DNA of 64,000 nt from Labia minor (lineage: Eukaryota; Arthropoda; Insecta; Dermaptera; Spongiphoridae), in the NCBI GenBank assembly GCA_963082975.1, contig OY720344.1:70584546-70648545 (forward strand), written 5' to 3'. The position numbers and the translations under genes were made by a program. Each line of letters begins with the position of its first letter. Within the stretch, counting starts at the first letter, position 1. This document shows positions 320 through 61,193 of this stretch, piece by piece. The notes beneath the pieces are model-generated. The model was not told where the DNA came from and did not search any database. It saw only the letters and a list, made by a program, of their open reading frames with translations.

Positions 320-993
320 AAATTCCATATTTTAAAGAAGTAGTTATCATGGCCACAAATTGTGAAAAATGTGGCCATCGTTCAAACGAGGTGAAATCAG
401 GAGGGGGAATTGAACCTAAAGGTACCAAGTTAAGTGTTAAAATTTCCTCACAAGAAGATTTTTCAAGAGACGTTCTTAAAGTAAATAAAAAAATATTATA
501 ATATTTTTTAATTTAATTTTTTTTAATGATTTCATTTATAATTTTCAGTCTGAGACTTGTTCTCTTTCAATACCTGAGCTTGAACTTGAAGTAGGATCTT
601 ATGCACTGGGAGGACGATTCACTACTGTTGAAGGAATTTTAACAGCTATGAAGCAACAATTAATAGATAATGGCATTTTGTTCAATGACAGTTGTGATGT
701 TAAGTCTAAAAATCGTTTTGATAATTTTCTCACTAAATTTCAAAAAGTGCTTGACGGACACTTTCCAATTACATTAATATTGGATGACCCAGCTGGAAAT
801 AGCTACGTTCAGGTAACAATTCTCAAATTCATAACATAATATTGTATTAAATTTACTATTTCCAAAATAATGTTTTCAGAGTTTAAAAGATTCAAACGAA
901 CCAGATGAAAATTTAACTATATCTAGTTATGAAAGAACATTTGAACATAATGAAGAATTAGGATTAAATGACATGAAAACAGAAAATTATTAA
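320..993 (+). CDS. ZPR1: ZPR1 zinc finger protein, C-terminal three exons (5' part outside window)
   Basis: Exons are 320-480, 549-812 and 880-993 (stop TAA 991-993). Donors are at 481 (GTAAAT) and 813 (GTAACA); acceptors are TTTAG at 319, TTTTCAG at 548 and TTTTCAG at 879. The joined frame reads [20 protein letters not shown], then [15 protein letters not shown], which is the strongly conserved second zinc-binding half and signature of ZPR1. The second A/B domain follows, ending [21 protein letters not shown], the typical ZPR1 tail. About 178 residues are visible; the first zinc finger and the first Cys pair of the second finger must lie upstream. Known role: ZPR1 assists folding of translation elongation factor eEF1A and associates with SMN complexes, moving between cytoplasm and nucleus. 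The first exon starts in mid-codon (two bases AA complete a split codon). I could not find the preceding exon in 1-300. Very confident in identity. Confidence 0.95.
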
Positions 994-1271: not shown

Positions 1272-2522
1272 TTACATTCTTATTATTTGTTCTCCATCTA
1301 ATTTTTTCAAGCGTGGTAACCTTTTACTTACTTCTGCTCTTAAAACACTTTCTTCTATTGATTCCGCTATTGGATTTCCTAATGTATTAATACATATTTT
1401 AATTAATAGAGTAAATTGTGAATATTAAATAAAAATGAATTTATACCTAGCAATAGTAAATCTTCTAACCCAGGAAGTTCATTTAATCTGTTGACTTCAT
1501 TCCAATCTCTTATATTGTTATATCCAATAAGCAAAACTCTCAACTTTTTAAGGACTGCTATACCTTTGAGTTTGTCAATACCATTATAAGATATCCATAG
1601 TTGTTCAAGATTGTCGCCTAAAGGTTCCTTTAAATAAAATTTTTAAAAATAAAATAAAGAATATTTTTAAAAAATTTTCAATTCATTTATTGGGAATAGT
1701 TATTATAATCAATAAAATTAATTTTTTTTTATTTAATACATAAAAATTGGAAATGTATTTTAGAAAAAAATTACTTCAGAATTTAGAGAATATTATCAAT
1801 TTAAATTATGTACTTATTCTCAATGCACTATTTTAAAGTGTTAAATTATATCAGGTTTTTTAATAAACTCTCAACTGGATAACCATTCAATTTCTTTTTT
1901 TATTTGTTCAAAAAATATTAAATGTAATAACTATTATAATTTATACACATATATATGGAATTATAAATTAATAATAAACAGAATACTTATACATATTTAC
2001 CAATCCAGAAATACTTTTGATATAATTTCTTCCAATTGATAAAATTTTTAAATTCTTAAGAGCTCCAATTCCAGATATTCTATCTATCATATTTGTACAA
2101 AGAACTAGCCTTCTATAAATAATAAATATTTTTATTAATATATAAATAAATATCTATTTATATAATATATATTCAATATTATAAAATATCGATAAATGAT
2201 AATACTCATATATATAAATATATATAAAACGTATATAAAAATAATTTGTTCACGCGGGTTGTTACAAAAACCAATTACCCATTATACATAAAGAACATAA
2301 TGAATCTTACTCGCATTTTGTAAATACCCCGAGCGAATTATCCATTTTTTCAATAGGGGGCCATTGGAAAGCCATAATAACTTCTGTAGCTTCTTCTGGT
2401 GCGATGTCAGGGTTCTTATCTTGCCATTTCTTTATTGCATCTTTGCAAGTAGTAGGCGGCTAATATTAATAAATAATTATAAATTTTTGTAAATAATTGT
2501 AAAATTCATTAAAATTTACCAT
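1272..2522 (-). CDS. DNAL1: Axonemal dynein light chain 1 (LC1), leucine-rich repeat protein, complete
   Basis: On the minus strand the exons are 2522-2520 (ATG only), 2459-2311, 2112-2001, 1627-1447 and 1378-1272, with GT-AG boundaries and compatible phases throughout. They join to 552 nt, 183 residues plus stop, close to the ~190 residues of human DNAL1. The frame begins MPPTTCKDAIKKWQDK and continues with PPIEKMDNSLGVFTKCERL, then LRR blocks (GALKNLKILSIGRNYIKSI, then LEQLWISYNGIDKLKG and LRVLLIGYNNIRDWNE). It ends RLPRLKKLDGEQIIRM. These are diagnostic of LC1, which sits on the motor domain of outer-arm dynein gamma heavy chain in motile cilia and flagella. An RFX X-box lies 85 bp upstream. 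It is tail to tail with ZPR1 (278 bp between stops). The uncertain part is the start: the ATG is followed directly by a donor, so exon 1 may instead be further upstream. Confidence 0.93.
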
Positions 2523-3640: not shown

Positions 3641-6600
3641 ATGCCTAATAAACTCAAAAAAGATAAGGTAGAACCCTTTTAAGCACTTTTCAATTCCTCA
3701 TTTGTCAAGTATAACCCTTTTAAAGATTTTATTAAAATAATACAAGTGTTTTTTCTTTTATCACTGTTAATAATATTAAACCATATAAATATGAGGGTGT
3801 AACTTTTGACGCCGTGTCATGTTTGAGTATTTTATTATTTTACAATTAAAACATTTCTTATTTGATCAACTTTAAAAACTATCATGGTTATATACTTTTA
3901 TTTATTTTGTATTATTTAATTGAACTAATATATAACTAATTATATTTTATTTTTAGGATCAATTGAAAGCAAAGTCAGGAAATGGAAAAAATGGAAAAGA
4001 TATTCATGATGGTGCTGATGAGGTAAGAATTTATTAAAAATAATATGCTAGAATAAATTTGAATATATAATTATTCAAATAATTGATCTATTAAATCTCT
4101 TTAATCAAAATGAATTGACTAACCTTATCTTCTTATTATAAACAAGACGTAGAAAAAAGGCTCTTGATTATTTATATAATTATATTAAAATTAATCAATT
4201 TTAATTGATTATATATATATGTATATCCACATATATATTTAAATGAAATAAAATTCTTAGTTCATATATAATTTTTTTTCTCTGTTATTATTATAAGATG
4301 ACGTTTTTAAGATTTTATTTTTTAATTATTTTTTATTCATTTTTTTAAATCATTTTAAATTATACGAAATACATATTTTTATCTATATCTTTGTTCATCA
4401 ATTTCAAATTTTTTTTTGAAATCCTAAATTTAAAGAATTAACCCTGAGGTTTTAAAATTCAATAATCCCAAGATTATTTCTACAAAAAAATTTCAAAAAC
4501 CACAAACAATATCTACCTTACCATTCGTAAACTAGGCTCAAATTGGTCATTTGGAGTAACATAAACTCTTATCTCAAAAAGTAAAATATAAATTTAATCA
4601 GGCATGTCAAATGTGAGTGAGACCCACCACAAATAATTTAAATATTTCTTATTTTAAAGTAAACTTTAATTTTATTTTTAGTTAATTTAATGCAGTTACA
4701 GCATGCAGCTTATTTTTTGTATTTTAGTGATTTTTCAATTGAGTGAATGAAAAATATAAGATTCAGTTAAAACGAATATTCGGAAATTGAGTTACTGCAT
4801 TGAAAAATGCTTATAAATAGGAAATTTGAAAATTCCAATTTATATTTTTAATAATTAACATTTTCAGGTTTACGGCCAATTAGAAAATGTAAACTACTAA
4901 TAAATATATTTAAAATATTTTATTAAAAATATCAGTATGAAAAATAACATTAAATATAAAATTACTATGTATACACAATATATTAACTTTGATATTGAGT
5001 GAAATAAATTAATAGATACAAACTACGTTATAAAATGATTTGATCTCCAACTTATTACAAAATAGATCGTGAGGATGTGGCTTGTAACATCATAAGATTT
5101 GACATGACTGATTTAGGTGATAATATTTCAGTGTTTTCGTAATTAAGATATGAATTCTAGTCAAAATCATGCATTTATCTTTATAACTATGGATAAAAAA
5201 CCGTACAATTATTAATAATTAAGGATTTAATAAATAAAAAATAAAATATAAATATCCTTGACTAAAGGTAAATTACTTTCATATAGTTATTTTATTTAAA
5301 TTGTGTATATTTTATTTATTTAATACACTCTTACAAATAATAATTTTCTTAATACTTCCCTTTTCTAATTATAAAATTTATCTCATATGTAATAAATCAT
5401 TAATTTAATATTTTAAGAATTTTTTTAAAAAAATATTTGCATATTTAAAATAAGAGATATAATTTTTAATAAATAAAATACACCAATATTATACTAAAGA
5501 TAATTATTAATTGCATATTACGTATATTAAATAATAGATTTAAATATAAGATAAATGATTAACTGAGTTAAGATAATATAAATATCTAATATAAATAACT
5601 TAAATGATTTTTTTATATATATTATTTATTTACAATCTTATAAACTCCAGATTCTTTAAATATAAATCTATTCATATTTTTTTGTTAAATTAATAAGCAA
5701 ATTATAAGCAATTTTAAATGTTATTCCTTTAAATAAATTAATTACATATATTGTTAACTTTTCTACTAATTTATTGTTTTTGTGCATTTGATTTAGATTT
5801 ATTTCAAAAATTACATAAAGAACATAAAAAACATAAACAATAAACATTTATTTTATGCATATATCTACAAAAGTAATAAAAAAAATATTTTTAATGTTAG
5901 ATTGTGTGAAAACTTGAATTAGTATGAAAACTATAATTTATTTATTTTTCTTTAATCGATTCGCCCTCAAATCTATCAAAATTCTACAATATTTATTTAT
6001 TTATCTTTTTTTGATCTATCAGACATATTATAAAAGTTTGGTCATTGAAATTCTCAAATTTTCAATCATTAAAAATCTTATTATTAAAATTATCGATAAA
6101 AAATATTTATCTTTGCAAATTATTGACAAATTTAAAATCAAGTCATTGTTTTTTTTAAATAACTTTTAATAGGATATTTTTAATTTTAATTTAATTAAAT
6201 ATATTTTTTATATAACCAATGCTCTCAATATTTATCTTTTGTACCTAATTTAGTAAATAAATCTAATTAATTTCCATTTTTTTTTCAAATAAAATCTAAT
6301 TTTTTAATGTATGAAAATTATTTATATTGGTTGGGAAAATTTTTAAATTATATTAATAATAAGAAAAGTCACTCACACTACAAGCCACCAGAGTGCATTT
6401 GAAAAAACAAAATAAAAATACGATCACATATCAAGGAACCAAATTTAGAATCAAACACGTCATCGCATTGGATTATACAAATATCTACCTTTATATATGT
6501 AAATATATTTATTTTAAAAATTTATAAATTAATTATTATAGTTAAAAAATATATTTAATTAAGAACATGTTTAAATGATATATGCTATAATCAAGACATG

Positions 6601-17836: not shown

Positions 17837-20800
17837 GTTGTCAAGGATGAAATTTGTAGCTAGTAATATGGCCAACCTTAATAGCATATAACTTGACATT
17901 GGCTGAATATTTTACCGTTATTTTTTTTCTGTCAATTTACACAGCTTGCTTGTTTGAAAGAATTATTATAATCCCTAAAAAGTGTAAAACGGTTTTTTTT
18001 TAAATCAATTTTGTTTAAAATGGAAAGGTCCGAAATTCGAACAATTATGAAGTATGAGTTCCTACGTGGAAATACGGCGTCGCAGGCCACGCGAAACATT
18101 AATACTGTATTTGACTCTAGTGTTACTACGCAACAGACAGTATCTAATTGGTTCGCTAAATTTCGAACAGGTAACTTTGACCTCGCAAATGAGCCTCGCG
18201 GTCGCCCGAAATCAAAGGTGAATAATGACGATCTAAAGGTCACCGTTGAGTCTGACCTATCCCAAAGTGCATATGAATTATCACTAAAGTTTGGTGTTAC
18301 CAAACAAACAATATTGACTCATTTAGCGCAAATCGGGAAGGTGAAAAAGTTGGATAAGTGGGTTCCACGCAGGTGTAATCCATTATGAGTTCATGAAACC
18401 TGGCTCATCGATTACAGCAGACATATACTGCAACCAACTGGACGAAATGATGCAAAAACTTAAAGAAAAACAGCCCAGATTGGTCAACAGATCGACACCT
18501 ATCCTTTTGCATGATAACGCTAGACCACACACTGCACAAATGACTGTGGCAAAGATACAGGAATTGGAGTAGGAACTTCTCCATCATCCACCATACTCAC
18601 CAGACCAAGCCCCCACTGACTACCACTTCTTCCGAAATTTGGACAACTTCTTGATAGGAAAAAAGTTTAATTCCGATAATGCAGTTAAACTGGCCTTCCA
18701 GGAATTCATTGACTCCCGTTCACCAGGGTTTTATACTAACGGCCTGAATAACCTCCCACTTAAATGGCAAAAGTGTGTAGACAATATGGGTGCATACTTC
18801 GATGATTAGAATAACTCCTTATGTTTGTAAGTTATCAATAAACTTTGTGTTTTTTTCTACAAATTTCATACTTGACGACCTGATATATATATATACCAGG
18901 TCTACCGATATGAAGTGAAATATGTCGATAAGGAATATTTGTTGTGACCAAGCCTTAATTTTGTTTGGTTGGTGTGGTATTTGTCAAACATATTTATTAT
19001 ACATAGATGATTTGCGGAAAGCATTAATTTTTTTGTTTTTTCATTTGAAGAAAAGTACTACAGAGTCGTATCGAATGCTTGCCGAGGCATATGGTGATCA
19101 TACTCTTTTAGAAGCAACATGCAAAAAATGGTTTCAACGGTTCAGGAATAATGATTTTGATGTGAAAAATGAAGAACAAGAAAACCACCAAAAAAGTTTG
19201 AAGACGCTGAATTGCAAGCAATATTGGATGAAGATGACACTTTGACACATTGCTACCATTTGCTCAATGGTACTTGGCTGGGAGCTGCTACCCCATCCGG
19301 CATATTCACCAGACTTGGTGCCTTCTGATTACCATTTGTTTTCATCGATGGGTCATCTTACAAAGAAGTAGAAAATTGGGTGTCTGGTTGGTTTGCTTGA
19401 AAAGACGAACATTTCGGCCACTGCTGTCAGAAAGTTTCCTTTTGTAATTTCTATTCTTTAATTTATGAATTTATTGAGATTAAAAATATTTTTATTAAAA
19501 AATGTATTAAATTGAAATTTGTATTAAACATTTTTAATATTATTTTGAGATTTTTCTACTAAAAATCATTATTTTAAATAATTGCATTTATTTTATATTC
19601 AAATTGTAAATTTCATGTTAATTTACAATTTATTTTGAAATGTATATAGCTTCTACTAAGTTCATTGACACGGAAGATTTTGATAAATTTTCTTTTAAGA
19701 GCGAACGAGTGAAATTTAATTTATAAAAAAACGATTATTTATTTGTCTAAAATCTAAAAACGTTTAGAAAAAGAGAATTTGTTTACGTTCAAACAGTTCT
19801 ACCATGTAATAATAATAATAATAATTAATGTATTTTTATTCTCTTATTTATAAACTATTAAATAAGTCATTCTATAAATAAAATAAATTTAAAAAAATCT
19901 AGATAGGTATATCAAATGTTATTTTATATAGAGTAAACTTATAAATTGCAATGTAAATTGATCTATTATTTTAGTAAAGTTATTTCATTTATTATGACTG
20001 AGGTCTGAATTCTAGCCAATTCTCGAAATTTTCGCTTTTTGTTCCTCTCTTATCTAGTTAAAAAAATGACTATTCATTTTAATAATATATTCTATATCTT
20101 TATATATAAAATATTTATTATTACCCATTATTCTTATTTAGATAATTTTTTTTTCAACTATCTACATTTTATTTATTCTAAACAAATTATAAATAAATTA
20201 AAAATATTAATCAATAAGTCTAATAATCAACGACCACCAGCCGAATCCTATCTTCTCCCAAATCCCTAAACAATCAAACTTCTGATTAGTATTTCATCAC
20301 CCATTTAAGCCACATATATATCATAACTTCTTCGAATTTTTAACTAACTTTGATTGGAGATGCATAGATGTGATGTAAATTAATACTTCCTGGATATTCA
20401 TTCAATCCTCGCCATTTCTCTCTCATCATTTAATAAGTTATTTAAATACATTTAAATTAAATATTTATTTATTAATTTGAAATCTTAAATTAGAATAATT
20501 ATTTTAGAAAATAATAAATTGATCAAAATAGATGAATAAATACATTTTTTTTCTAGTTATTATCTTCTGCTAAGAGAAGAGTTTGGCTTTTATTATTCAC
20601 ACATTCTCTTGTCTACTTTGCCAACCCCATTAAGAATAACAACTAATTTATAATTTAATCATTCTGAAAATTAAATATTTCACATAATATTGAAAATATA
20701 TTTATAATATAATTAAAATAAAAGCATTATCTATATATATAAAAAAAGGTTTTTGTCTGCACATTGCTCAGAATTTAAAAATTTTTGCATATCTTCGCGT

Positions 20801-23800: not shown

Positions 23801-25445
23801 TATAATTAATATAGTGATTAAATTAAAATATATTTTTTAAATAAGAACACAAAAAGAAATGAATGTTTTATGTAATATACTGATTGAAACAAAATGGATG
23901 AAAACCTTTTACTACTTTCAACCACCAAATACTATGTACCACTCGGGGGTACAGGGGGCGGAGCCCCCGTCTAGGTGTGAAGAGCGCCGAAGGCGCTCTG
24001 AGCAGCTAGTTATAATTATAAAAAAACATTCCGAAAAAATTTCCCATATTTTTTATAGAAAAAATATAACATTAACTTTTTAATAATCATAATAAAGACT
24101 AAAAAAATAATCATTAGTATGTGTTTAATCTTAATTATAATTTTAATTTGGTACTTATTGATATCACAATAAAACGTAGAATCATTGGACCACGTGAATG
24201 TGAATTAATGTCGTTAACCACCACGCTGCGTGTCGTCTTTAAAATGTGTAAAAAGTTACATTTTAAACAAAAACACTAATTTTTTAAATTATTTAGATCG
24301 ATAAATGTAGATAGAGCATAATGTTTATTAATCGTTGCATTGGATCTGTAATTTCCTTCGATTATATAAATTCGTTAAAAATAATTATTTTTCTTTCTTT
24401 TACCTAATAATTTTGAATATGTAATTGAATACCTTTATAATATATATAAAAAATTAATAGTAATCAATTTAAATATTTAATTAGACAATTTTTTTAATAT
24501 TTTGTTCTATTCACTAAGTTTTATATCAATATCTTTTTTTCTATTAGCTCTAATATTCATAAGAATCTAAATATTTTATGAACTTTTTTGAAAGTTTTAT
24601 AAAATCAGAGAGAGAAAGAAACTTTTTCAAACTTCTTATTTTTCAAAATTCTAGGAAATGATATTTACGATATACCAAATATTTATATGTAAATATAAAT
24701 AAAGTCTAAAACTTCTAAATTGAGTTTGTATTTTACAATTTCTGAATAGTAATTTATTGGACTTTTATATATAATAATTTAAAAAAATGTAAATACCTCT
24801 CTTTCTAAAAATAGAACAATAGAGTATTGTTTCGAAAACATCATTGACATCAATAGACTTCTATACCTTTTGCCCTGCTCGTTTTTTGTAGATATATAAA
24901 TAAATAATTCTGGTACTTAGAAATTATTTTTTATAAATGATAAATTATATATAATAATAATATAAATAATATTCAAAATATTCAGTTTATTAATTTCTTT
25001 ATTGTAAAAGATGATTGATTGAAAATAAAATTTTAAAAATTGAATATCTTTAATTTAAAGTCATACTAATAATTAATTATTATTATTTTCTTGTTTCAGG
25101 TGACCAAAAATGCAAACAATGGCACTCAGGTGGTGGTTACCTCTGTTGTGTCGAATCCCTCATCGGGGCCAGGTGTCGGGGGTGCCCCACCAACTACAGT
25201 CACAGCCCCTTCTGGTAGCGTTGGGGGAGGACAACTTGCGGCCCCTTTGGGTCCCGGGGGCGCTGGTGGGGGGACTGGTGTCTTGGGGCCCGGTGGAACT
25301 GGTTCAGCACAACCACCACCGCCTACACAAATCAACAAAATAAAATATCCATGGCCTACACATAATAAAAAGGATAAACGTCAAAGTTCCTCGCGATTTA
25401 ATATCAGCAAGAATCGAGAATTGCAGAAATTACCAGCACTAAAAG
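3641..25445 (+). CDS. PPP2R5C/D: Serine/threonine protein phosphatase 2A B56 (B') regulatory subunit, first three coding exons
   Basis: Coding exons: 3641-3667 (MPNKLKKDK, donor GTAGAA), 3957-4022 ([18 protein letters not shown], then GADE; donor GTAAGA) and 25100-25445. The first two join in phase 0. MPNKLKKDK closely matches the MPNKNKKEK/MPYKLKKEK start of vertebrate PPP2R5C and PPP2R5D, and exon 3 carries the B56 motif [20 protein letters not shown], then KLPALK. Known role: B56 subunits are HEAT-repeat proteins that give the PP2A A-C dimer its substrates, through LxxIxE motifs, in Wnt/Akt signalling and at centromeres. The window holds ~146 N-terminal residues only; the HEAT repeats are not present. 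Intron 2 is 21,077 bp. The start has A at -3. Identity is very sure; C versus D type is not resolved and the single arthropod gene may be equivalent to both. Confidence 0.93.
6760..7130 (+). repeat. GC-richer tRNA-like segment, possible SINE
   Basis: A sharp island of GC-rich DNA in AT-rich intron. It holds GGGTTTCGAGTCC at about 6855-6867, one base away from the pol III B-box GGTTCGANTCC, and TAGCCAAATGCG about 45 bp upstream resembling an A-box. The following text shows no ORF with protein similarity; the 60-codon ORF at 6788 is the same DNA read by chance. The spacing is tRNA-like, but no second copy was found in the window, so SINE status is tentative. Confidence 0.4.
8737..8904. mobile_element. 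hAT-type MITE, 168 bp
   Basis: Left end CAGAGATTCTCAAAT, right end (reverse complement) CACAGATTCTCAAACT; these are hAT-like terminal inverted repeats. Flanks are CTGTAAAG (8729-8736) and CTGTTCAG (8905-8912), an 8 bp target duplication with 6 of 8 bases kept. Non-coding interior, containing GGTACC motifs near both ends. Confidence 0.75.
13495..13870 (+). repeat. Dispersed repeat with TGTC microsatellite, copy 1
   Basis: The stretch from GAGCTCATTGCTCAGAATT through the TGTC repeat and TGAACCGATTACTAGGAAAT to CATAGGCTATA and TTGTTCATTCAGAGC aligns over ~280 bp with 20755-21120, with many substitutions. The pattern of microsatellite followed by an (A)ACCGATT core resembles the Helentron-like family at 40-59 kb. 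No ORF. Confidence 0.6.
13893..14111. mobile_element. hAT-type MITE, 219 bp, GC-rich ends
   Basis: Left end CAGTGGCGGACTAAGGC, right end (reverse complement) CAGGGGGGACTAAGGC. Flanks CCTAAGAT (13885-13892) and CATATGAT (14112-14119) agree at 6 of 8 positions, an aged 8 bp duplication. GGGCCCTAGGCAA-type blocks recur inside, near both ends, as in many hAT MITEs of animals. Confidence 0.75.
16130..16460 (-). repeat. Microsatellite-bearing dispersed repeat, with (AC)26 at 16291-16342
   Basis: Read on the minus strand, a TG/TGTA microsatellite is followed by GCAAAAACGGTTGAGCTAGA, ATGATGAAATTTGGTACATG and CTCAACCGGAAGAGGG. This aligns with the plus-strand segment 40175-40360. The order microsatellite, target-like core, CCGGAAG is shared with the longer family at 55 and 58 kb. 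The 60-codon ORF here encodes a His-Thr run from the AC repeat and is not a gene. Confidence 0.6.
17170..17520. repeat. GC-richer unassigned segment, probable dispersed repeat
   Basis: Between AT-rich flanks lies ~330 bp of near-balanced composition with no homology I recognise and no credible ORF (the 60-codon minus ORF lacks known motifs). The abrupt composition step suggests an inserted element. No terminal repeats or target duplication could be defined. Confidence 0.3.
17804..17832. repeat. (TA)n microsatellite
   Basis: A TA tract abuts the left end of the mariner at 17833. Mariners insert at TA, so TA tracts are natural targets. Similar tracts occur at 10531-10549, 13047-13070, 43002-43037, 53802-53821 and 63153-63173. 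Confidence 0.85.
17833..18883 (+). mobile_element. mariner element A, internally deleted
   Basis: Terminal repeats TTAGGTTGTCAAG (left) and TCAGGTCGTCAAG (right, reverse complement) continue into a shared GATGAAATTTGTAG/TATGAAATTTGTAG; TA flanks both sides. Length 1051 bp against ~1.3 kb for intact mariners. It holds a transposase in two pieces: 18011-18388 (DNA-binding HTH part, [20 protein letters not shown], to KKLDKWVP) and, in another frame, 18371-18809 (catalytic C-terminal part). Confidence 0.88.
18011..18809 (+). pseudogene. mariner transposase pseudogene with central deletion and stop
   Basis: The N-terminal ~120 residues carry two helix-turn-helix regions ([20 protein letters not shown], then [13 protein letters not shown]) and GRPKS. 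After LDKWVP the frame changes to [20 protein letters not shown], then [12 protein letters not shown] and [20 protein letters not shown], ending YFDD. The second and third catalytic Asp are present with DD34D spacing, but the segment with the first Asp (TGDEKW region) is gone. A TAG stop interrupts the catalytic part near 18570. It cannot make a working transposase. The 123-codon minus-strand ORF over the same DNA is a shadow. Confidence 0.88.
18893..19460 (+). mobile_element. mariner element B (different subfamily), internally deleted and 3' truncated
   Basis: The left end CCAGGTCTACCGATATGAAG follows the TA tract that ends element A. An ORF at 18922-19245 carries [20 protein letters not shown], then [17 protein letters not shown], typical mariner N-terminal text. 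It then jumps to fragments of [18 protein letters not shown] (19290-19345) in another frame. The first and second catalytic Asp regions are deleted. I found no matching right terminal repeat by 19700, so the 3' end appears lost. Confidence 0.8.
20745..21120 (+). repeat. Dispersed repeat with (TGTC)n, copy 2
   Basis: Homologous to 13495-13870: ACATTGCTCAGAATTTAAAA, GACTTTAGAATTTTTCACG, a longer TGTC tract, TGGCTGAACCGATTTCTTTG and ACATAGGCTATACATTTTAT. The right part carries a GC-rich patch (CAGCTCGCGGCTCACTGCC) before AT-rich DNA. Confidence 0.6.
21119..21790 (+). repeat. Degenerate direct duplication, ~515 bp period
   Basis: AAAGAATTATTATAATATTT, CAATTAAATAATTTATTCTA and AAAGTTCTCAATTTAATTAA at 21119-21230 recur with changes at about 21635-21740. 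The preceding GAATCAT blocks also match weakly. This suggests two copies of the 3' half of the repeat at 20745, one more decayed. No coding content. Confidence 0.45.
22780..23790 (+). pseudogene. RTE-type non-LTR retrotransposon, 3' part of reverse transcriptase, multiply broken
   Basis: Pieces in shifting frames read [10 protein letters not shown] (22828-22860) and [10 protein letters not shown] near 23045-23075, where the RT active site YADD has Ala changed to Pro. Then comes the ORF 23274-23576: [20 protein letters not shown], then [28 protein letters not shown]-like [19 protein letters not shown] and VIKGKKLR followed by a stop where [10 protein letters not shown] continues. It ends with AAKNFRV and a short GATA-like tail at 23770. 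This text is characteristic of the RTE clade C-terminus. Many stops and shifts make it inactive. Its 5' part is missing or unrecognisable, though 22150-22250 may hold a decayed NYRGISLL region. Confidence 0.75.
23946..24003. other. Two adjacent GC-rich perfect stem-loops
   Basis: GGGGGCGGAGCCCCC (6 bp GGGGGC/GCCCCC stem around GGA, near 23955-23969) and GAGCGCCGAAGGCGCTC (7 bp GAGCGCC/GGCGCTC stem around GAA, near 23982-23998) stand in otherwise AT-rich DNA. No rho-independent-type T tract follows, and the context is intronic. The 74-codon ORF across it is a by-product. Function unknown; probably part of a mobile element. Confidence 0.55.
25100..25445 (+). CDS. PPP2R5C/D: B56 exon 3: Gly/Pro-rich linker plus conserved [22 protein letters not shown] segment
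   Basis: The acceptor is TTGTTTCAG at 25099; the exon starts GTG ACC AAA ([10 protein letters not shown]) and ends AAA G at the donor GTAAAACC (25446), leaving phase 1. Residues ~14-82 of the exon are a low-complexity Val/Gly/Pro/Ala stretch built of GC-rich codons, ending [14 protein letters not shown]. The last ~30 residues are the conserved B56 lead-in to the HEAT domain. The linker equals the variable, disordered N-terminal part of vertebrate PPP2R5D (PPPTQLSKIKY). Conservation of that lead-in rules out a chance ORF even though the exon is 21 kb from exon 2. A reading that runs past the donor to 25534 is intron read-through. Confidence 0.92.
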
Positions 25446-27363: not shown

Positions 27364-29179
27364 ACTTAAAGGATCTCGAAAATTATATGCATTATCGAAA
27401 TATAATTATTAATATTATACCACAAGTTTATCCTTAATTAAGTGACAAATTAAGTGCAATTTAATTAATTAATTTCATCATCCATTGTCACTTTCAGCCA
27501 AAAAATATCACTACTATCCTATTCTAATTAATTAATTCATAAACTTTTTGAGATTAAATTGCGTCGAACTTTAATTTTTTTAATATATTAAATATATTAA
27601 ATAAATAATTCTCCTTATTTGTTTTCTATTAAACTCTCCGTTCTCTTCACTTAAAGCCGCATAGAGAACGCTAGACATTGTTTGTTTAATATACTCGAAT
27701 GTAAATATAACCATATTGCGTTAGATTATTTGAATGAAAATATTATTAACTATACTTGAGAGGAAATTATAAATTATCTATCTATGTATATTAATTATAT
27801 GTATAACCTCGTATTCATTTTTCTCTTAGCTCAAATGTTTATTTTGAAGTTCATTCATCATACTTCTATTAATATATTAATATATTTAATAATTTTACAT
27901 TATAAAAAATAGAGAAATAAAACACAATTGTAATGAATTATTTTTTTATTCAAATTAAAATAATTATATCTTTTGAAAAAATTTTTAGAGATTAATGTTT
28001 TTTTTATTAATTATGTGTATATAAATGAGAAACTATATGCTTTTTTATTTCTGTAGAGTAATTATGGTAAACTTCATTTTTTTGTACTTCATTAAAATAA
28101 TAATAAGAATGTATCATACATATATTTATATATATTTACAAATTCTTCTAGAATAAAATTAATGTCACATTAAAGCTCGATTTTATGATTTTGTTTATTC
28201 TTTACTTTATTTTCAATATATCGTAAGAATTAAATATTATATGGAGTTCATAATATTAACATTAATTAAAATTTTTTTATTAATTTTTTTTTTTATTTTG
28301 TTTCGAACGTTATGAGATTTTTAACATTTCAATATAAATATATATTATTTAAGAATTCTACAAAATACATTAAAATTAATGAATCAATTATTTTATGTTT
28401 TAAAAAATATATTAAAATAAAAATAATATAAGAGAAAAAAAAGTTACGACAATTCTAACATTCTTTTTAAAAGTCTATAAATTTATTCTTCCCGAGAGAA
28501 CTTTTTGAATATTAATAAAGATATAAAAAGTTAAATCTTAGATTGGAATAAAATTTATTAAAATATGAAAGTAATATAAATTAACGGGTTCGAATTTTTT
28601 AAAATTTATTTAAAGATTCATTTTTTAATGATTGTCATAATTTGAACACAATATACTTAATCTTTGTTAACCATATCAAATGCGTCTTATAATTTTCAGA
28701 AAATTAAATATTTAAACTTTTTTCTCCCATTAAACGAAAGATCAATAACCAACTTTATATTCTTAACTATCAATTATATCGATAATTGAATTTTTTTAAA
28801 CACGATAGAGAAAAATGTATGAGTGGTTAAATATTAACTTTTTAATGGATTGTCTACTGATACATGTATAAAAATAGTTATTGATATATAATAGATATTT
28901 AAATTATATTTTCAATATATTTTATGTACTACTTAAAATCAAATGAGGTTTGTTTTTTTGCTACAGTTCCAAATACAAAATTAATTTTTCAAAAGACATA
29001 CTTAATTTAATGATGTAGGATTCAAATTAAAAAAACATCAAAATACTTTATTTTAAACTTCAAAAAATTAAAAATATTTTAATGATATGGAGATTTGATT
29101 GTATTTATTTTCAAAATAATTTAAAAAGAAAATTGTTAAGGGATCTCTGAATAGAATATGATAGAAATAAAAATTGAAA

Positions 29180-29394
29180 ACAGCGGAGTATGGTGGGTTG
29201 CAGGACTAGTAGGCGTTTCCTTCTAAGGATGGCGCCTCTCGTTGACCGCTAGCGCCACCTATGTTCTGTCCGGATGTTAGTTACCATCGAGACAGCCAGG
29301 CAGCACGACTACCGGCATTGGCAGCCTGACAGTACAATGACAACGTGGTCCCTGCCAAGCGGCGATTCCCTCCCTTAGAGAGGGTAGCCAGGAC
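29180..29394 (+). promoter_or_regulatory. GC-rich 5' leader or promoter island with three upstream ORFs
   Basis: Composition jumps from AT-rich to GC-rich at about 29180. Three complete short ORFs precede the long ORF: 29229-29252 (7 codons plus stop), 29261-29329 (MFCPDVSYHRDSQAARLPAL, then AA) and 29337-29378 (MTTWSLPSGDSLP). An in-frame TGA at 29338-29340 shows that ATG 29395 is the first possible start of the long ORF. AGCGCCACCT at 29251-29260 is the reverse complement of AGGTGGCGCT, the core of the arthropod and vertebrate CTCF motif. Confidence 0.5.
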
Positions 29395-29713
29395 ATGGTC
29401 CACGGGGCGCCTGGTCCCGGCGGCGCCACCGCGTCGTCCTCCCCTGTCATGTTTTATCGGGATCCGGCAGCCGTCTCTGCGGCAGCTGCCAGTTTAGGTC
29501 TACCGAAAAGTCCCAGTTTCCACAGTGGACTCGATTTGTTGGCAAGTGCCACACTTGGACCTAACGGCGGTGGTAGTGTCGTGTGCGTGAGTCCGAACAC
29601 GCCGATGTGTGTCGGGAGTGAAGTGACAGACACAGGTACGATAGTGCCGGTGACCAACCCAGTGAATACGATTGTCTCACCCGGCATTCCGCGGCAACTT
29701 CCCTCGTTGATGG
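29395..29713 (+). CDS. GC-rich alternative first exon, probably of the B56 gene
   Basis: Starts ATG at 29395 (G at -3, G at +4) and reads MVHGAPGPGGATASSSPVMF, YRDPAAVSAAAASLGLPKSP and on to SPGIPRQLPSLM. The open frame continues to a TAG at 29743, but composition drops to AT-rich after ~29713. Two donors fit: CAG|GTACGA at 29636 (strong) and ATGG|GTTCGT at 29714 (weak). Both leave phase 1, as does B56 exon 3. With the second donor the end QLPSLM + G aligns with QKLPALK + G of exon 3, and both would become Asp with an AT-starting acceptor, as in B56 proteins (LKD). I do not recognise the rest; the Ala/Gly/Ser-rich text suggests a disordered N-terminus. That it belongs to B56 is inference; it could be exon 1 of an unrelated gene. 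Confidence 0.5.
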
Positions 29714-31505
29714 GTTCGTTTTCTCTATTGATTGAAAGTAGCTAATTAATCTCACTAAGTGTAGTTTCACACATGATTCAGCTCCCCTTAACTTTCTCTA
29801 TTGATTTTCCCGGAAACACGTGCTCGCTGATTGATTCGAACAAATATTTATCCCATTTTCCATTATATTCCTTTTATGTTACCCATTTATTATAACAATT
29901 ATCTACTACTACTATCTTCAATCATCTCTAATTGCTTTTCGATTTTAGATTAAAACACACTATACTAATGTATTATAATAGTTAAATGTATCCATATGTC
30001 TCTTCCCTTTTTCTCTCCTTGAAAAATAGCGGAATTGTTATTTTATCAAAACAGTTATATGTAATTATTATTATGATTTTTATTTATAAAATATATCAAT
30101 GAATATTTAATTAAATTTATATATTTTCAAGAAAAAGACTGACCTATCTAAAGGCTTCTGACTTATCTTTACATTAATAGAGTGAATAGATGAGAGGTTG
30201 ACTAAGTTCATCTTAACTATTCTATTCTCACTTAAAAAATTAAATAATTTTCTCACAAATAAATTTCTCATAATATATATTATATTTTTTTAAATCTTGA
30301 AATTTTATATAATTATATAACTTAAATATCTATATTTATAAAGGATAATTAAATAATAAATAACCCACCGAACTAGAGGTCGAAGGATCGAATCTATCAA
30401 AGTTAAAAGAATCTAATTACATTATATAATATTCAATATGAAATGCGAAGGCTGACTAAAATTGTTTCAGGTCTAAAAGCTATATAAAACTAAACGAAAA
30501 AATATAAATAATCAAAAAATCAAAATTATATTCTACTATCATTTTTTAAAAATTATCTTTAATAATAATATTATATTCACATAATTTATAATAGTATATA
30601 ATAATTCAGCTAAAAAATCTTTTATATTATATTATTAAAATTAATAATTTGATAATTATTTATTTAATTTAATATTTAAATATACGATGTGAATAATTAG
30701 CAAATTATATACAAAATATTTTTTCCAATTTATAAAATTCAATATTTTATTATTTCGTTACAATTGGGAATAAATTGAGTTTTAATATTAAATATTAATT
30801 TCATATTAGCCTATATTAAAAATTCTATAATATTTATACTTGTTAAAATTTATACTTATTATAGTCATTATAATTTATATATATAAATAATTATGTTTGC
30901 ACTTTGTCTGGCTATCCCTCGTTTGTATTATTCTTCTTAAATCATTTAAGGGTGTTGAATGGATTGAAAGAAGGAAAATAATTAATTAAATAAATATTGC
31001 AAATAATAATTCCAATGTTTATATAATTATAAATATTGAGAATAGTTTGCATTTCATCTAAATATATATATTTACCAAGAAAGAATAAGACCCTCTATAA
31101 AAATAAAAAAATGATAAAACCAAAATTCTTGCAAAATGCTTAAACACCACCATCAGATCAGTTGGTTTCCATAATTAAATTAATTTCCTTTCAATTTCTT
31201 TTTATAAAAGTTTTATAATTAAATTTTTTATAGGATCTTATTATATATATATATATATATATTAAAACCAGAAATTATTAAAATTCGAATATATGTGAAT
31301 TTGAATTTCTGAATAAATAAATTTAAGCTATTTGCTTATTCTTATAAATATTAATGACAATAATTAAACGTTTTTTTTATTAATAGTAATAATACTATTT
31401 TACTTTTTTATATTTAAACAAATTGAATATAAAATTAATCTAAAGTTTTTATTTATACTAAAATAATTTTTTTATTTTGATATTTTACATAAATATGTCG
31501 AATAT

Positions 31506-36568: not shown

Positions 36569-38218
36569 TACACTTGCGTGCAGCTAAATCGACTCAACCC
36601 AAAAGCGCGCAAACAAAATCTTATTTTTTTGAAATGGCTAAGCCAATATTTATAAAATGTATATATTTTTAAAGCTTATTTATTTAGCTTTACGTTGATA
36701 TCAACATCAAGCAAATTTGTTGATTACTTTTTAAATTATTTGATCTGAATGACAATGAAAGTGAAAAACGATGTTAAGGAAAGGAAAAGTAGGAATGTTA
36801 AAAATTTAAATAAAACAATAATTTTAATCATAATAAAGAAAATTTATTTTCTTAATAATTGGTGTTCCCCCCTTTAGCTTTAATGACAGCCCTCATGCGA
36901 TCCCGCATCGACCTTATAAGATTTTTTATAAAATCTTGGGGGATGTTCTCCCATTCTTCTAACACAGCTCTTTGGAGCTCAACAATGGTCGAAGGTGCGG
37001 GATTTCTTGATCGTACCCTTTGTTTGAGGTGGTCCCACATATGCTCTATTGGATTCATGTCCGGGCTGAGCGCTGGCCACTCCATGGTCTCGATACCAAC
37101 TTCAGTCAAGTATTGCCGAGTGGCCACCGCAGTGTGGCTCCTGGCATTATCATGCATCCATAAAAAATTTTCGCCAATGAATCCGGCGTAGAGAACAACA
37201 TGATGCACGAGAATGTCCGCAATATATCGGTCAGATGTTAGACCCCCTCCACGTCCTCCGCCAGGCACAAAAACAATGTCTGTTTTTCCGTCCAAGGAAA
37301 TGCCACCCCAAATCATGCAAGAACCACCACCATAAGTGACTGTTTCAGAGAAACAGCATTGGGAAAATCGCTCACCCGGACGCCTGTACACTCGACTTCT
37401 CCTATCACTACCATAAAGGCACACTCTACACTCATCAGTGAATAGAACTGCCCTCCATTGGTCGATACTCCAATTGAGATGCTCTCGAGCAAATTGAAGT
37501 CGAGTTACACGGTGGGTTGTGGTTAATTTCGGGCCAGTGGCAGGTCTTTTGCAAGTGAGGTTGGCTTCCTTCAAGCGTATTCTCACTGTCCACTGACTGT
37601 CAGTCATACCTCGAACTTCTCTCAGCTGCTGCTGAAGACTTACGGCAGTGAGATGGCGATTTCGGAGAGACGTCGTAACGATAAAACAGTCATCTCTCGC
37701 AGACGTTGACCGACGGCAGCGGGTATTTGGTCTCCGAGTAAAGCCACCAGTTTGCTGAAACCTCCTGTGGATCCTTGAAACAGCAGACTGACAGTTCAAC
37801 AGACGAGCGACTTCTCTTTGGCAATGACCCTGTTTTATCAAAACAACAACTTGGGAGGCAACCTCTGGATTTGTATTCATGATTTTCTGATAAAAATGGT
37901 TGTCAATTTGTGTAAATTTAATCCAAAAAACATATGAAATGCGATTAATAAGAATAATTGGTTGTATGGAATTTTATAAGACAATTGAAAATAAGCATTA
38001 GCGGCAGCTAGGAACAACATTTTTTCCAGTTCAGTCATTCAGATCAAATAATTTAAAAAGTAATCAACCAATTTACTTGATATTGATATCAATGTAAAGC
38101 TAAATAAACAAGCTTGAAAAATATATACATTTTATAAATATCGGCTTAGCCATTTCAAAAAAATAAGACTTTCTATTCGCGCTTTTGGGTTGAGTCGATT
38201 TAGCTGCACGCAAGTGTA
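36569..38218 (-). mobile_element. Tc1-type transposon with long inverted repeats and intact transposase, 1650 bp
   Basis: The left end TACACTTGCGTGCAGCTAAA, TCGACTCAACCCAAAAGCGC is repeated inverted at the right end, with the similarity continuing for ~190 bp (36569-36750 against 38030-38218). Most differences are single substitutions plus a small indel. TA flanks both ends (36567-36568 and 38219-38220). It encloses one uninterrupted transposase gene on the minus strand. Long inverted repeats plus an open frame imply recent activity relative to the other elements here. Confidence 0.92.
36852..37880 (-). CDS. Tc1-family DD34E transposase, 342 residues, intact
   Basis: Full-length for the family (about 340 residues), with no stop or frameshift. 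The N-terminal part (residues ~1-120) contains two helix-turn-helix regions (VASQVVVLIKQGHCQREVAR and TAVSLQQQLREVRG) and between them RRFQQTGGFTRRPNTRCRR. The catalytic triad is visible: Asp in WRAVLFTDECRVCLYG, Asp in LWMHDNARSHTA and Glu in SPDMNPIEHMWDHLKQR, with exactly 34 residues between the second Asp and the Glu. A Gly-rich run GGGRGGG occurs in the middle, as in Tc1 proteins. The enzyme would cut and paste the element at TA sites. The start ATG 37880 gives MNTNPEVASQ. The plus-strand ORF at 36859-37191 is its shadow. Confidence 0.93.
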   Translation of the reverse strand: MNTNPEVASQVVVLIKQGHCQREVARLLNCQSAVSRIHRRFQQTGGFTRRPNTRCRRSTSARDDCFIVTTSLRNRHLTAVSLQQQLREVRGMTDSQWTVRIRLKEANLTCKRPATGPKLTTTHRVTRLQFAREHLNWSIDQWRAVLFTDECRVCLYGSDRRSRVYRRPGERFSQCCFSETVTYGGGSCMIWGGISLDGKTDIVFVPGGGRGGGLTSDRYIADILVHHVVLYAGFIGENFLWMHDNARSHTAVATRQYLTEVGIETMEWPALSPDMNPIEHMWDHLKQRVRSRNPAPSTIVELQRAVLEEWENIPQDFIKNLIRSMRDRMRAVIKAKGGNTNY

Positions 38219-50965: not shown

Positions 50966-51590
50966 ATAAGTTGACCTGTGGCCAGGTCCGAACCGACCGA
51001 CGGTTTGAAGTAAAATAATTTCCAGCTACAGAAACAATTTCAAATAATTTTAATATATCTATTAATGTAATAAAAAACAGATATGGATACATAAATAATA
51101 AATATAAACATTTTTAATTTTATTTTATTTATAATATATATGCAAGACCAGGCTGTGACGTCATGAATGACTGGATGACGTCATATAATTTTAAATCAAG
51201 AAAAAACTAATAAATATGATTTTTCTCGAGGATAAAACCAATACAAAGTGCATGATTCGTGGTGATATATAAAAAAATCTCCTCATGTGAAATTTGGTGT
51301 GAAAATAACCCTTCCCTTCCTATCGTCGATCGCTAATACTACCACTTCCGGTTTCCGGAATTGCACCAAAAGTTGATCAATTCATCCCACTGATGCATTA
51401 AGTAAATATACCAAATTTCATCAAAATCGGTTGAGCCGTTCAGGCTGTACACATCTATACGGACGGACAGACATCATGCTAAAAATACTTTTTTCTGTTA
51501 AGAAAATGCATGATTCGTGGAGATATGTAAAAATCTCCATATGTGAAATTTGGTGTTAAAACAATACCTCCCTTACTATCGTCGTTCGGT
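50966..51590 (-). repeat. Helentron-like interspersed element, copy 2, complete
   Basis: On the minus strand it runs from ACCGAACGACGATAGTAAGG (51590) through a short CCGT region, CTCAACCGATTTTGATGAAA, and TGACGTCA at 51183-51176 and 51163-51156. It then reaches CCGTCGGTCGGT and the hairpin GACCTGGCCACAGGTC (50988-50973), ending GGTCAACTTATT. All landmarks of the family are in the same order as in copies 3 and 4. Confidence 0.8.
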
Positions 51591-52822: not shown

Positions 52823-53654
52823 TACGAGGTTTGTAAAAAGAAAAGCCGATTGTTGAATTATTTCGAAAAGTATTTATTTATTCATCAATATCTATTTTAT
52901 CCCCCTCAATGTAATTCCCCTCACATATAATGCACTTTTCAGTATGGCCATCAGCTCGTTCTTCGATTCCAACTTTATTTTATCAATTGTGGCAAAACAC
53001 TTTTCTTTCATTGGTCTCTTCAGTTTTGGGAATAGGAAAAAGTCACAGGGAGCTAAATCTTGTGTATTGAGGCATAATTACGAGGTTGTTTTTGGCCAAA
53101 AAATCACGAACAAGCAATGATGTGTGAGCTCGTGCATTATCGTACTGCAGAAGGCATGATTTGTTTTTCCACAAGTCCGATAATTTGAGTCGTATTGCTT
53201 CACGCAAACGTTGCATAACTTCCTTGTAGTATTCCTTATTAACAGTACGACCTGTTGGCAAGAACTCATGATGCACCACGCCATTGTAATCGAAGAAAAC
53301 AGTGAGCAAAACCTTCACATTGGATAGAAGCTTGCTTTTTTAAAGCGCTTGTACCACTTATAAACATTTTTTTGAGACAGAATAGACTCGCCGAATGCCA
53401 GAGTCAACATTTTAAGTGCGTTGGACCACTTCCATTTTTAACGCAAAATTTAATACAGATTCTTTAAAAATTTGAAGAACACACAAAAACGTGACTAACT
53501 TTTTCATTTGTCAAAAACAAACTACTAATCCAAAATGACTGATAATGTTAACATATGAGAAACATGTGTACCAACATAACAAAAAAATTCGATAATCGAA
53601 TGTACACAGTCCGCGAAAATTCAAAATTCAGCTTTTCTTTTGAACAGACCTCGT
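52823..53654 (-). mobile_element. mariner element D, 832 bp, internally deleted
   Basis: Terminal repeats TACGAGGTTTGTAAAAAGAA (left) and TACGAGGTCTGTTCAAAAGA (right, reverse complement), both flanked by TA. About 450 bp shorter than a full mariner. Contains a broken DD34D transposase on the minus strand. Confidence 0.85.
52900..53440 (-). pseudogene. mariner transposase pseudogene (element D)
   Basis: The minus strand reads LTLAFGESILSQKNVYKWYK, then RFKK (HTH part), fused directly to VKVLLTVFFDYNGVVHHEFL, PTGRTVNKEYYKEVMQRLRE and LLQYDNARAHTSLLVRDFLA (ORF 53043-53318). After IMPQ the frame is lost, but pieces corresponding to the YSPDLAP/C-terminal region ending EGDKID remain near 52900-52960. 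The segment with the first catalytic Asp is deleted; the second (YDNARAHT) is present. Confidence 0.85.
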
Positions 53655-55163: not shown

Positions 55164-55805
55164 ACCGACCGACGATAGTAAGGGAGGTATTGTTTTCACA
55201 CCAAATTTCACATGTGAAGATTTTTACATATCTCCACGAATCATGCATTTTCTAAACAGAAAAAAGTATTTTTAGCATGATGTCTGTCCGTCCGTCCGTC
55301 CGTCCGTCTGTCCGTCTGTCCGTCCGTATAGATGTGTACAGCCTGAATGGCTCAACCGATTTTGATGAAATTTGGTATATTTACTTAATGCATCAGTGGG
55401 ATGACTTGATCAACTTTTGGTGCAAATCCTGAAACCGGAAGTGGTAGTATTAGCGATCGACGATAGGAAGGAAAGGGTTATTTTCACAGCAAATTTTTCA
55501 CATGAGGAGATTTTTTACATATTATCTCGAATCATTCACTTTGTATTTGTTTTATCTTCGAGAAAAATCATCTTTATTAGTTTTTTTCTTAATTTAAAAT
55601 TATATGACGTCATCCAGCCATTCATGACGTCACAGCCTGTTCTATATTATAAATAAAATAAAATTAAAAATATTTATGTAATATGCCTATCTGTTTTTTA
55701 TTACATTAATAGATATATTAAAATTATTTGAAATTGTTTCTGTAGCTGGAAATTAATTTATTTCAAACTGTCGGTCGGTTCAGACCTGGCCACAGGTCAA
55801 CTTAT
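55164..55805 (+). repeat. Helentron-like interspersed element, copy 3, complete
   Basis: Left ACCGACCGACGATAGTAAGG; long (CCGT/CTGT)n at ~55285-55326; core CTCAACCGATTTTGATGAAA; GAAACCGGAAGTGGTAGTAT; TGACGTCA at 55605-55612 and 55625-55632; right TGTCGGTCGGTTCAGACCTG with the hairpin GACCTGGCCACAGGTC at 55783-55798; end GGTCAACTTATT. The left and right ACCGACCGACG/CGTCGGTCGGT blocks form the inverted subterminal repeat. The 79-codon ORF inside is not a gene. Confidence 0.8.
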
Positions 55806-60539: not shown

Positions 60540-61094
60540 GTGATGTTTGAGGATGATGTTTTTACTATCTAGCAAAAATAGGTCAAGTTCGTTCCGTTTC
60601 AGCAGCATTTCTCAGGCGTTGATTCGGTCCAGAAGGTTTTTTGTGTCAAATCATGCGGCACCCAAACATCAAGCTTTTTTTTTGTATCCAGCCTTCTGCA
60701 GATGGTTTAAAATGGTTTGGTGACTAACTCCCATCTCCTCGGCGATGTCACGAGATGCCACATGCCGGTCTAACTGGATGTTTTCCATGATTTGATCGGT
60801 ATTCTTCGTCTCGGGTCTTCCGCCGGCTGGCTTATCCATGGTCTCGTTTTCACCTGCTCTGAATCGTCGAAACCATTCCTCCGCGGTTCGAAATGATAGA
60901 GTACCATCCCCCAAAACACCATTAATCTCACGGAACGTTTCTCTAGCGGATTTGCCTTTAACGAAGGAAAACTTTAAAATAGAGCGAATTTCGGCGTTAG
61001 TGAACTCCATGTTTACACGTCTATAACTGTTAAACGCATTATCCAAACTAATAATGCTTAGCGTCGTTTTGTAGATTATGTCAAGACCTTTCAA
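60540..61094 (-). pseudogene. mariner transposase N-terminal part (element E)
   Basis: The ORF 60669-61094 encodes 141 residues. The family-typical start is probably the internal Met at MEFTNAEIRSILKFSFVKGK. It has both HTH motifs (SARETFREINGVLGDGTLSF, then RTAEEWFRRFRAGENETMD, and later ASRDIAEEMGVSHQTILNHL), joined by GRPETKN. After YKKK a run of A residues shifts the frame, and LDVWVPHDLTQK continues in the next frame, then stops. No catalytic residues remain. The HTH part is otherwise well preserved. Confidence 0.85.
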
Positions 61095-61193
61095 ATGATG
61101 TATAGTATTACCAGATACGAGCTCAGTAGCGCTTTATACATAGCCGCGAAATTCATAAGACAAAAAGGCGGAAGGGAGATATTTGACAACCTA
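60540..61193 (-). mobile_element. mariner element E, 5' half
   Basis: The right end (minus strand) reads TAGGTTGTCAAATATCTCCC, TTCCGCC, a mariner terminal repeat. The transposase starts inside and breaks off near 60540; there is no left terminal repeat. Only the leader, the DNA-binding part and a few further residues remain. Confidence 0.75.

Follow-up and report, generated by a model that had tools for sequence, protein, structure and literature searches.

A candidate alternative first exon within a long intron of a gamma/delta-type PP2A-B56 gene of Labia minor

In vertebrate B56 gamma, an exon 1a of delta-like type lies upstream of a second exon, 1b, and both are joined to one core, according to PMC2257934; five transcript variants of the human gene are named in PMC3117819. 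For Drosophila well-rounded (wrd), the insect B56 gene of the gamma/delta type, nine unique protein isoforms with differing sets of coding exons are described (PMC11997712). Given these precedents in vertebrate B56 gamma and Drosophila wrd, the two-arm design is already known, and a B56 gene with two N-terminal arms belongs to a known kind rather than to a new one.

The locus considered here lies in a window of 64,000 nucleotides (the whole stretch of DNA that was analysed; G000:C1:70584546-70648545) from the Labia minor genome of 604 Mb in 71 contigs. The window is very AT-rich (G+C 24%), and a GC-rich open reading frame stands out in a long intron, 3.9 kb downstream of exon 3 of a B56 gene and on the same (plus) strand. 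We consider it very probable that positions 29395-29713 form the coding segment of an alternative first exon in this wrd-type PP2A-B56 gene, whichever of two donor sites is used. The first-pass annotation had proposed such an exon at these coordinates, about 4 kb after exon 3, and its placement, reading frame and GC-rich character all hold. The features of the gene are as follows, in window coordinates:

3641 to 3667, plus strand: probable first coding exon of the long (delta-type) B56 isoform, encoding MPNKLKKDK and ending in phase 0 before GTAGAA
25100 to 25445, plus strand: B56 exon 3, a delta-type N-terminal arm, ending with G in phase 1
29180 to 29394, plus strand: putative promoter and 5' UTR, GC-rich, with a sharp 5' edge and no convincing acceptor
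29250 to 29260, minus strand: AGGTGGCGCTA, an exact CTCF-like 11-mer and possible promoter or insulator element
29395 to 29713, plus strand: candidate alternative first coding exon of B56, 106 codons plus G, ending in RQLPSLM before the conserved D
29636 to 29637, plus strand: stronger donor, CAG/GTACGA, in the same phase and 78 nt (26 codons) earlier, whose use would yield a shorter in-frame form
29714 to 29715, plus strand: donor TGG/GTTCGT, weak by donor score, best fit to the exon end with the GC change point
72895 to 73094 (window-equivalent numbering; G000:C1:70657440, outside the window), plus strand: exon 4, the first shared B56 core exon, PF01603 E 1.1e-17

Several lines of sequence evidence indicate that the gene encodes a PP2A-B56 regulatory subunit closer to gamma/delta (wrd) than to alpha/epsilon. 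Exon 4 alone scores up to 109.5 bits against gamma, 97.6 against delta, 66.3 against alpha and 62.0 against epsilon. The last 47 complete codons of exon 3 match residues 60-107 of human B56 delta (8u1x_B; phmmer, E 1.1e-10) and stop exactly at LPALK, in agreement with the earlier assignment of a PPP2R5C/D-type N-terminus to the upstream form. A search of the species' own genome gave 15 matches to PF01603, eight of them on the plus strand at G000:C1 70657448-70690305 and seven on contig C6. The second B56 gene, on C6, has a first core exon that likewise opens AG/AT at the conserved Asp; its own first or upstream exon was not found with N-terminal motifs in the 40 kb upstream. The exon at 3641-3667 came from scanning for an N-terminal motif of B56 gamma/delta, which it matches with three mismatches in ten. 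No exon 2 was identified between it and 25100, to which it could join directly, and the first-pass numbering of the host intron as the third is provisional.

The rest of the window holds parts of other genes and mobile elements:

489 to 839, plus strand: neighbouring-gene exon with a ZPR1 jelly-roll domain
1403 to 1642, minus strand: neighbouring-gene exon with a leucine-rich repeat piece, which we take to be possibly from an axonemal dynein light chain
17972 to 18809, plus strand: mariner-type transposase fragments (HTH_48 or Transposase_1), of which the piece 18573-18806 has no Pfam match
36852 to 37973, minus strand: Tc3/mariner-type transposase frame of 373 codons in the 43-kb B56 intron (HTH_Tnp_Tc3_2 and DDE_3)
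53043 to 53339, minus strand: mariner-type transposase fragment (HTH_48 or Transposase_1)
60669 to 61133, minus strand: mariner-type transposase fragment (HTH_48 or Transposase_1)

Two GC peaks on opposite strands, 51277-51485 (minus) and 55207-55483 (plus), have the peptide SVRIDVYSLNGSTDFDEIWYIYLMHQWD in common and are therefore probably a dispersed repeat. A further GC-rich peak lies at about 6202-6553 of L009 (window-equivalent 70202-70553), 2.3 kb before the shared B56 exon.

The connection between the candidate and the B56 gene is made at its 3' end. Its frame is open from 29341 to 29745, after a stop at 29338-29340, and contains an ATG at 29395 that has G at -3 and at +4; the last full codon is an ATG (Met, 29710-29712), followed by G29713/GT29714, so that the candidate ends one base into a codon, as exon 3 does at 25445. 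The shared core exon, 43 kb downstream, begins in the genome's own sequence with TTATAG/AT TCT ACA ATC ACC GAT. As it opens AG/AT, any upstream exon with a final G in phase 1 rebuilds the conserved Asp, and both exon 3 and the candidate do so in silico, the latter giving RQLPSLM-D-STITDREELF in frame.

The terminal residues carry a second signal. The proposed alignment of QLPSLM with QKLPALK, the tail of exon 3, is borne out by its rarity: among the 944 sites in 110 kb of both strands at which GGT follows seven open codons, similarity to QKLPALK at the candidate's level occurs at exon 3 (score 34) and at the candidate (17), the next best reaching 15, and random codon draws from the candidate ORF matched it in 4 of 50000 cases. 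With exon 4 attached, the candidate tail reaches 105.5 bits against delta, 73.2 against alpha and 66.4 against epsilon, a gain over exon 4 alone of 7.9, 6.9 and 4.4 bits for these solved B56 structures, and the alignment to human B56 delta (8u1x_B) starts at residue 101. The exon 3 tail reaches 124.4, 78.9 and 72.0 bits (gains of 26.8, 12.6 and 10.0). B56 gamma is a point against the proposal: over its 11 distinct sequences the candidate tail moves the score by no more than -0.6 to +1.5 bits. The in-frame join and the gains for delta, alpha and epsilon argue for the proposed alternative first exon of B56.

Which donor ends this exon is less certain. The site at 29714 (GTTCGT) is weak, as had been noted: its score lies below -2, and 30% of the window's 2251 plus-strand GT dinucleotides score as well or better. 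By contrast, the donor at 29636 scores 4.1, which ranks it among the best 1% of the window's plus-strand GT sites and nearly level with the exon 3 donor (4.2); all donor scores come from a matrix of approximate frequencies. A third phase-1 GT, at 29738, scores -0.6, above 29714 and below 29636; it was rejected as a donor, given that Asp would become Asn and that the position lies beyond the GC edge. As the sites at 29636 and 29714 are both in phase 1 and 78 nt apart, both are usable in frame.

The same alternative first exon might thus end mainly at 29636, with an arm of 80 residues closing on SEVTDT before the rebuilt Asp and with 29636-29713 being intronic or part of a minor form. The donor score speaks for this arrangement, as does the stretch 29635-29712, which alone has no clear frame preference when scored with a positional model fitted to exons 3 and 4 (-0.5 for the ORF frame, +2.0 for one of the others). 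However, the GC-rich sequence runs on past this site to about 29718, and the tail produced by the 29636 donor loses the B56 similarity (97.8, 66.5 and 61.7 bits with exon 4, a change of +0.2, +0.2 and -0.3 for delta, alpha and epsilon), as the first-pass annotation had anticipated. The right GC edge lies at 29718, with intervals of 29695-29726 and 29703-29726 for the two stretches analysed; it falls by the weak donor rather than the strong one, and beyond it G+C drops to about 30% and then to 18% over the next kilobase. For exon 3 the edge method came to within 3 bases of the 5' end (25096 for 25099) and for exon 4 to within 10 (72904 for 72894), but it misplaced both 3' ends (25323 for 25445; 73146 for 73094), and the 29718 edge is hence supportive rather than decisive. 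While donor strength favours 29636, the GC edge and the B56-like tail favour 29714. Our preference is for the long form, which may be accompanied by the short one: we think it probable that the alternative first exon ends mainly at 29713, and an end mainly at the 29636 donor appears doubtful.

Next to the alternative first exon of B56, one has to consider that the ORF may be the first exon of some other transcript, whether of a nested gene or a non-coding RNA and on whichever strand, or a frame that arose by chance within a regulatory GC island. The length of the ORF is within what chance provides: when three differently chosen stretches were each dinucleotide-shuffled 2000 times, 234, 90 and 221 of the shuffles reached it, and length was dropped as evidence for coding. 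Base composition does vary with codon position (chi-square 19.4, a value that 6 of 2000 mononucleotide shuffles attain; the same test on the upstream segment 29182-29394 gave 493 of 2000), and under the positional model the ORF frame scores +5.5, the two remaining forward frames -20.7 and -18.9. The mirrored minus-strand frame scores +3.1, and a minus-strand frame of 95 amino acids shares the periodicity (34 of 3000 shuffles), as would suit a different transcript.

Homology searches agree with the earlier remark that the ORF has no recognised relatives, which likewise suits another transcript or a chance frame. The candidate arm has no Pfam match, the whole arm finds no match to human B56 delta (8u1x_B) at E up to 10, and a protein search of the species' own genome returned one match, the candidate itself. 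Homology of the whole arm was dropped as a line of evidence: the single PDB match, an Fc-receptor-like chain (E 0.024), is noise in which no stretch passes individually. Scans for relatives gave 22 pattern matches in viral contigs and 317 in bacterial and archaeal contigs, none of them confirmed; they say little, because even the conserved B56 core exon, used as a control, finds none in viral contigs. An Rfam search returned nothing. Against a separate transcript or a chance frame stand the terminal B56 match in the right phase before a GT and, by eye, the lack of any other plus-strand host exon in the lists of ORFs and GC peaks up to the B56 core, a minority of whose entries were also searched. 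We regard this explanation as very unlikely.

The 5' side bears on whether the exon is first or internal. The GC-rich island spans 29180-29713 with 58.6% G+C in an AT-rich intron, and its left change point at 29180 (29175-29183) marks a step from 17% to 61%. From exon 3 to the shared exon there are 16 GC peaks, of which the candidate is the most GC-rich (0.68 in 120 bp; next 0.57), and among the other 15 the two with the longest frames, which were the two searched with Pfam, are transposases. Unlike exons 3 and 4, where the GC step adjoins the acceptor, the step at the candidate lies 215 bases before the ATG. Five upstream ATGs in 29180-29394 open short frames. The 11-mer AGGTGGCGCTA, which we take to be an insect CTCF-type motif, has no other match in the window even with one mismatch allowed (0.07 expected), and 5 in 20000 mononucleotide-shuffled versions of the island contain it; a literature search did not find the motif among the matches listed. 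A sigma-type promoter scan, of a type unsuited to animal DNA, gave nothing. The GC edge, the upstream ATGs and the CTCF-like motif fit a promoter with a 5' UTR, and none of them proves one.

Seven acceptor-like AGs lie between 29180 and the ATG, and two of the starts they offer, 29228 and 29381, correspond to exons whose length is a multiple of three. An internal cassette exon that follows exon 3 and adds residues before the conserved Asp could draw on the pyrimidine tract TTCCCTCCCTT before the AGs at 29377-29380 and on an open frame from 29381, the one AG start usable by frame, but appears highly improbable: the GC-rich sequence begins 200 bp further upstream (29180), the AG that comes first behind the tract (29378) is out of frame, the start at 29228 runs into the stop at 29338-29340, the ATG has its G at -3 and +4, and LPSLM repeats the position of LPALK, as expected of exclusive and not of additive exons.

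For the alternative first exon, we propose the following scheme, in which promoter use, splicing, expression and function are predicted from sequence features. A second promoter in the GC island at about 29180-29394 would start a transcript inside the intron, and its first exon would encode a nearly uncharged arm of 106 residues rich in Ala, Gly, Ser and Pro. Splicing from 29713, and perhaps also from 29635, across 43 kb to the shared core exon would rebuild the Asp. A common HEAT core would then be present in two B56 proteins from this gene, the first with the basic delta-type arm (exon 1 plus exon 3) and the second with the neutral arm. The net charge is +10 for exon 3 versus -1 for the candidate arm, which has no adjacent basic pair. 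The candidate arm also contains five Ser/Thr-Pro sites, versus none in the exon 3 arm, although about three are expected from its composition and the excess is not significant; no LxxIxE-type motif was found in it. The likely consequence is that the second promoter would govern the place and time of production of the second form, and that the exchange of arms would alter localisation and phospho-regulation of the same phosphatase. PMC2257934 and PMC4463637 put forward the view that B56 specificity is steered by the variable ends.

Should this reading hold, the gene annotation ought to carry two N-terminal forms, and studies of the insect gene, for which roles in synapse growth and insulin signalling (PMC11997712) and in meiosis (PMC7780726) are described in flies, should ask which form acts where. 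Our search found no published description of the candidate exon in an insect, most subscription papers lying outside it, and the exon may well be annotated already. The candidate also offers a test of whether the two-start gamma/delta B56 design predates vertebrates; the seven species that PMC2257934 lists for the mixed-isoform transcript, like the frog from which it came, are all vertebrates. We tentatively raise the idea, speculative at this point, that this design is ancestral to insects and vertebrates, with a long, neutral and Ser/Thr-Pro-bearing second arm in insects as a second mode of control.

The comparison with Drosophila wrd covers the gene type and the number of isoforms: PMC11997712 describes the same type of gene in an insect, with several isoforms. 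Vertebrate B56 gamma offers the closer parallel in layout, with a delta-like N-terminal exon first, an unrelated second N-terminal exon downstream and a common core. In contrast, its 1b-type arm, as given in PMC2257934, comprises 19 dissimilar residues, whereas the candidate arm has 106 residues and an LP-x-L end resembling those of delta, alpha and epsilon. The likeness between the vertebrate 1b exon and the candidate exon is one of exon order.
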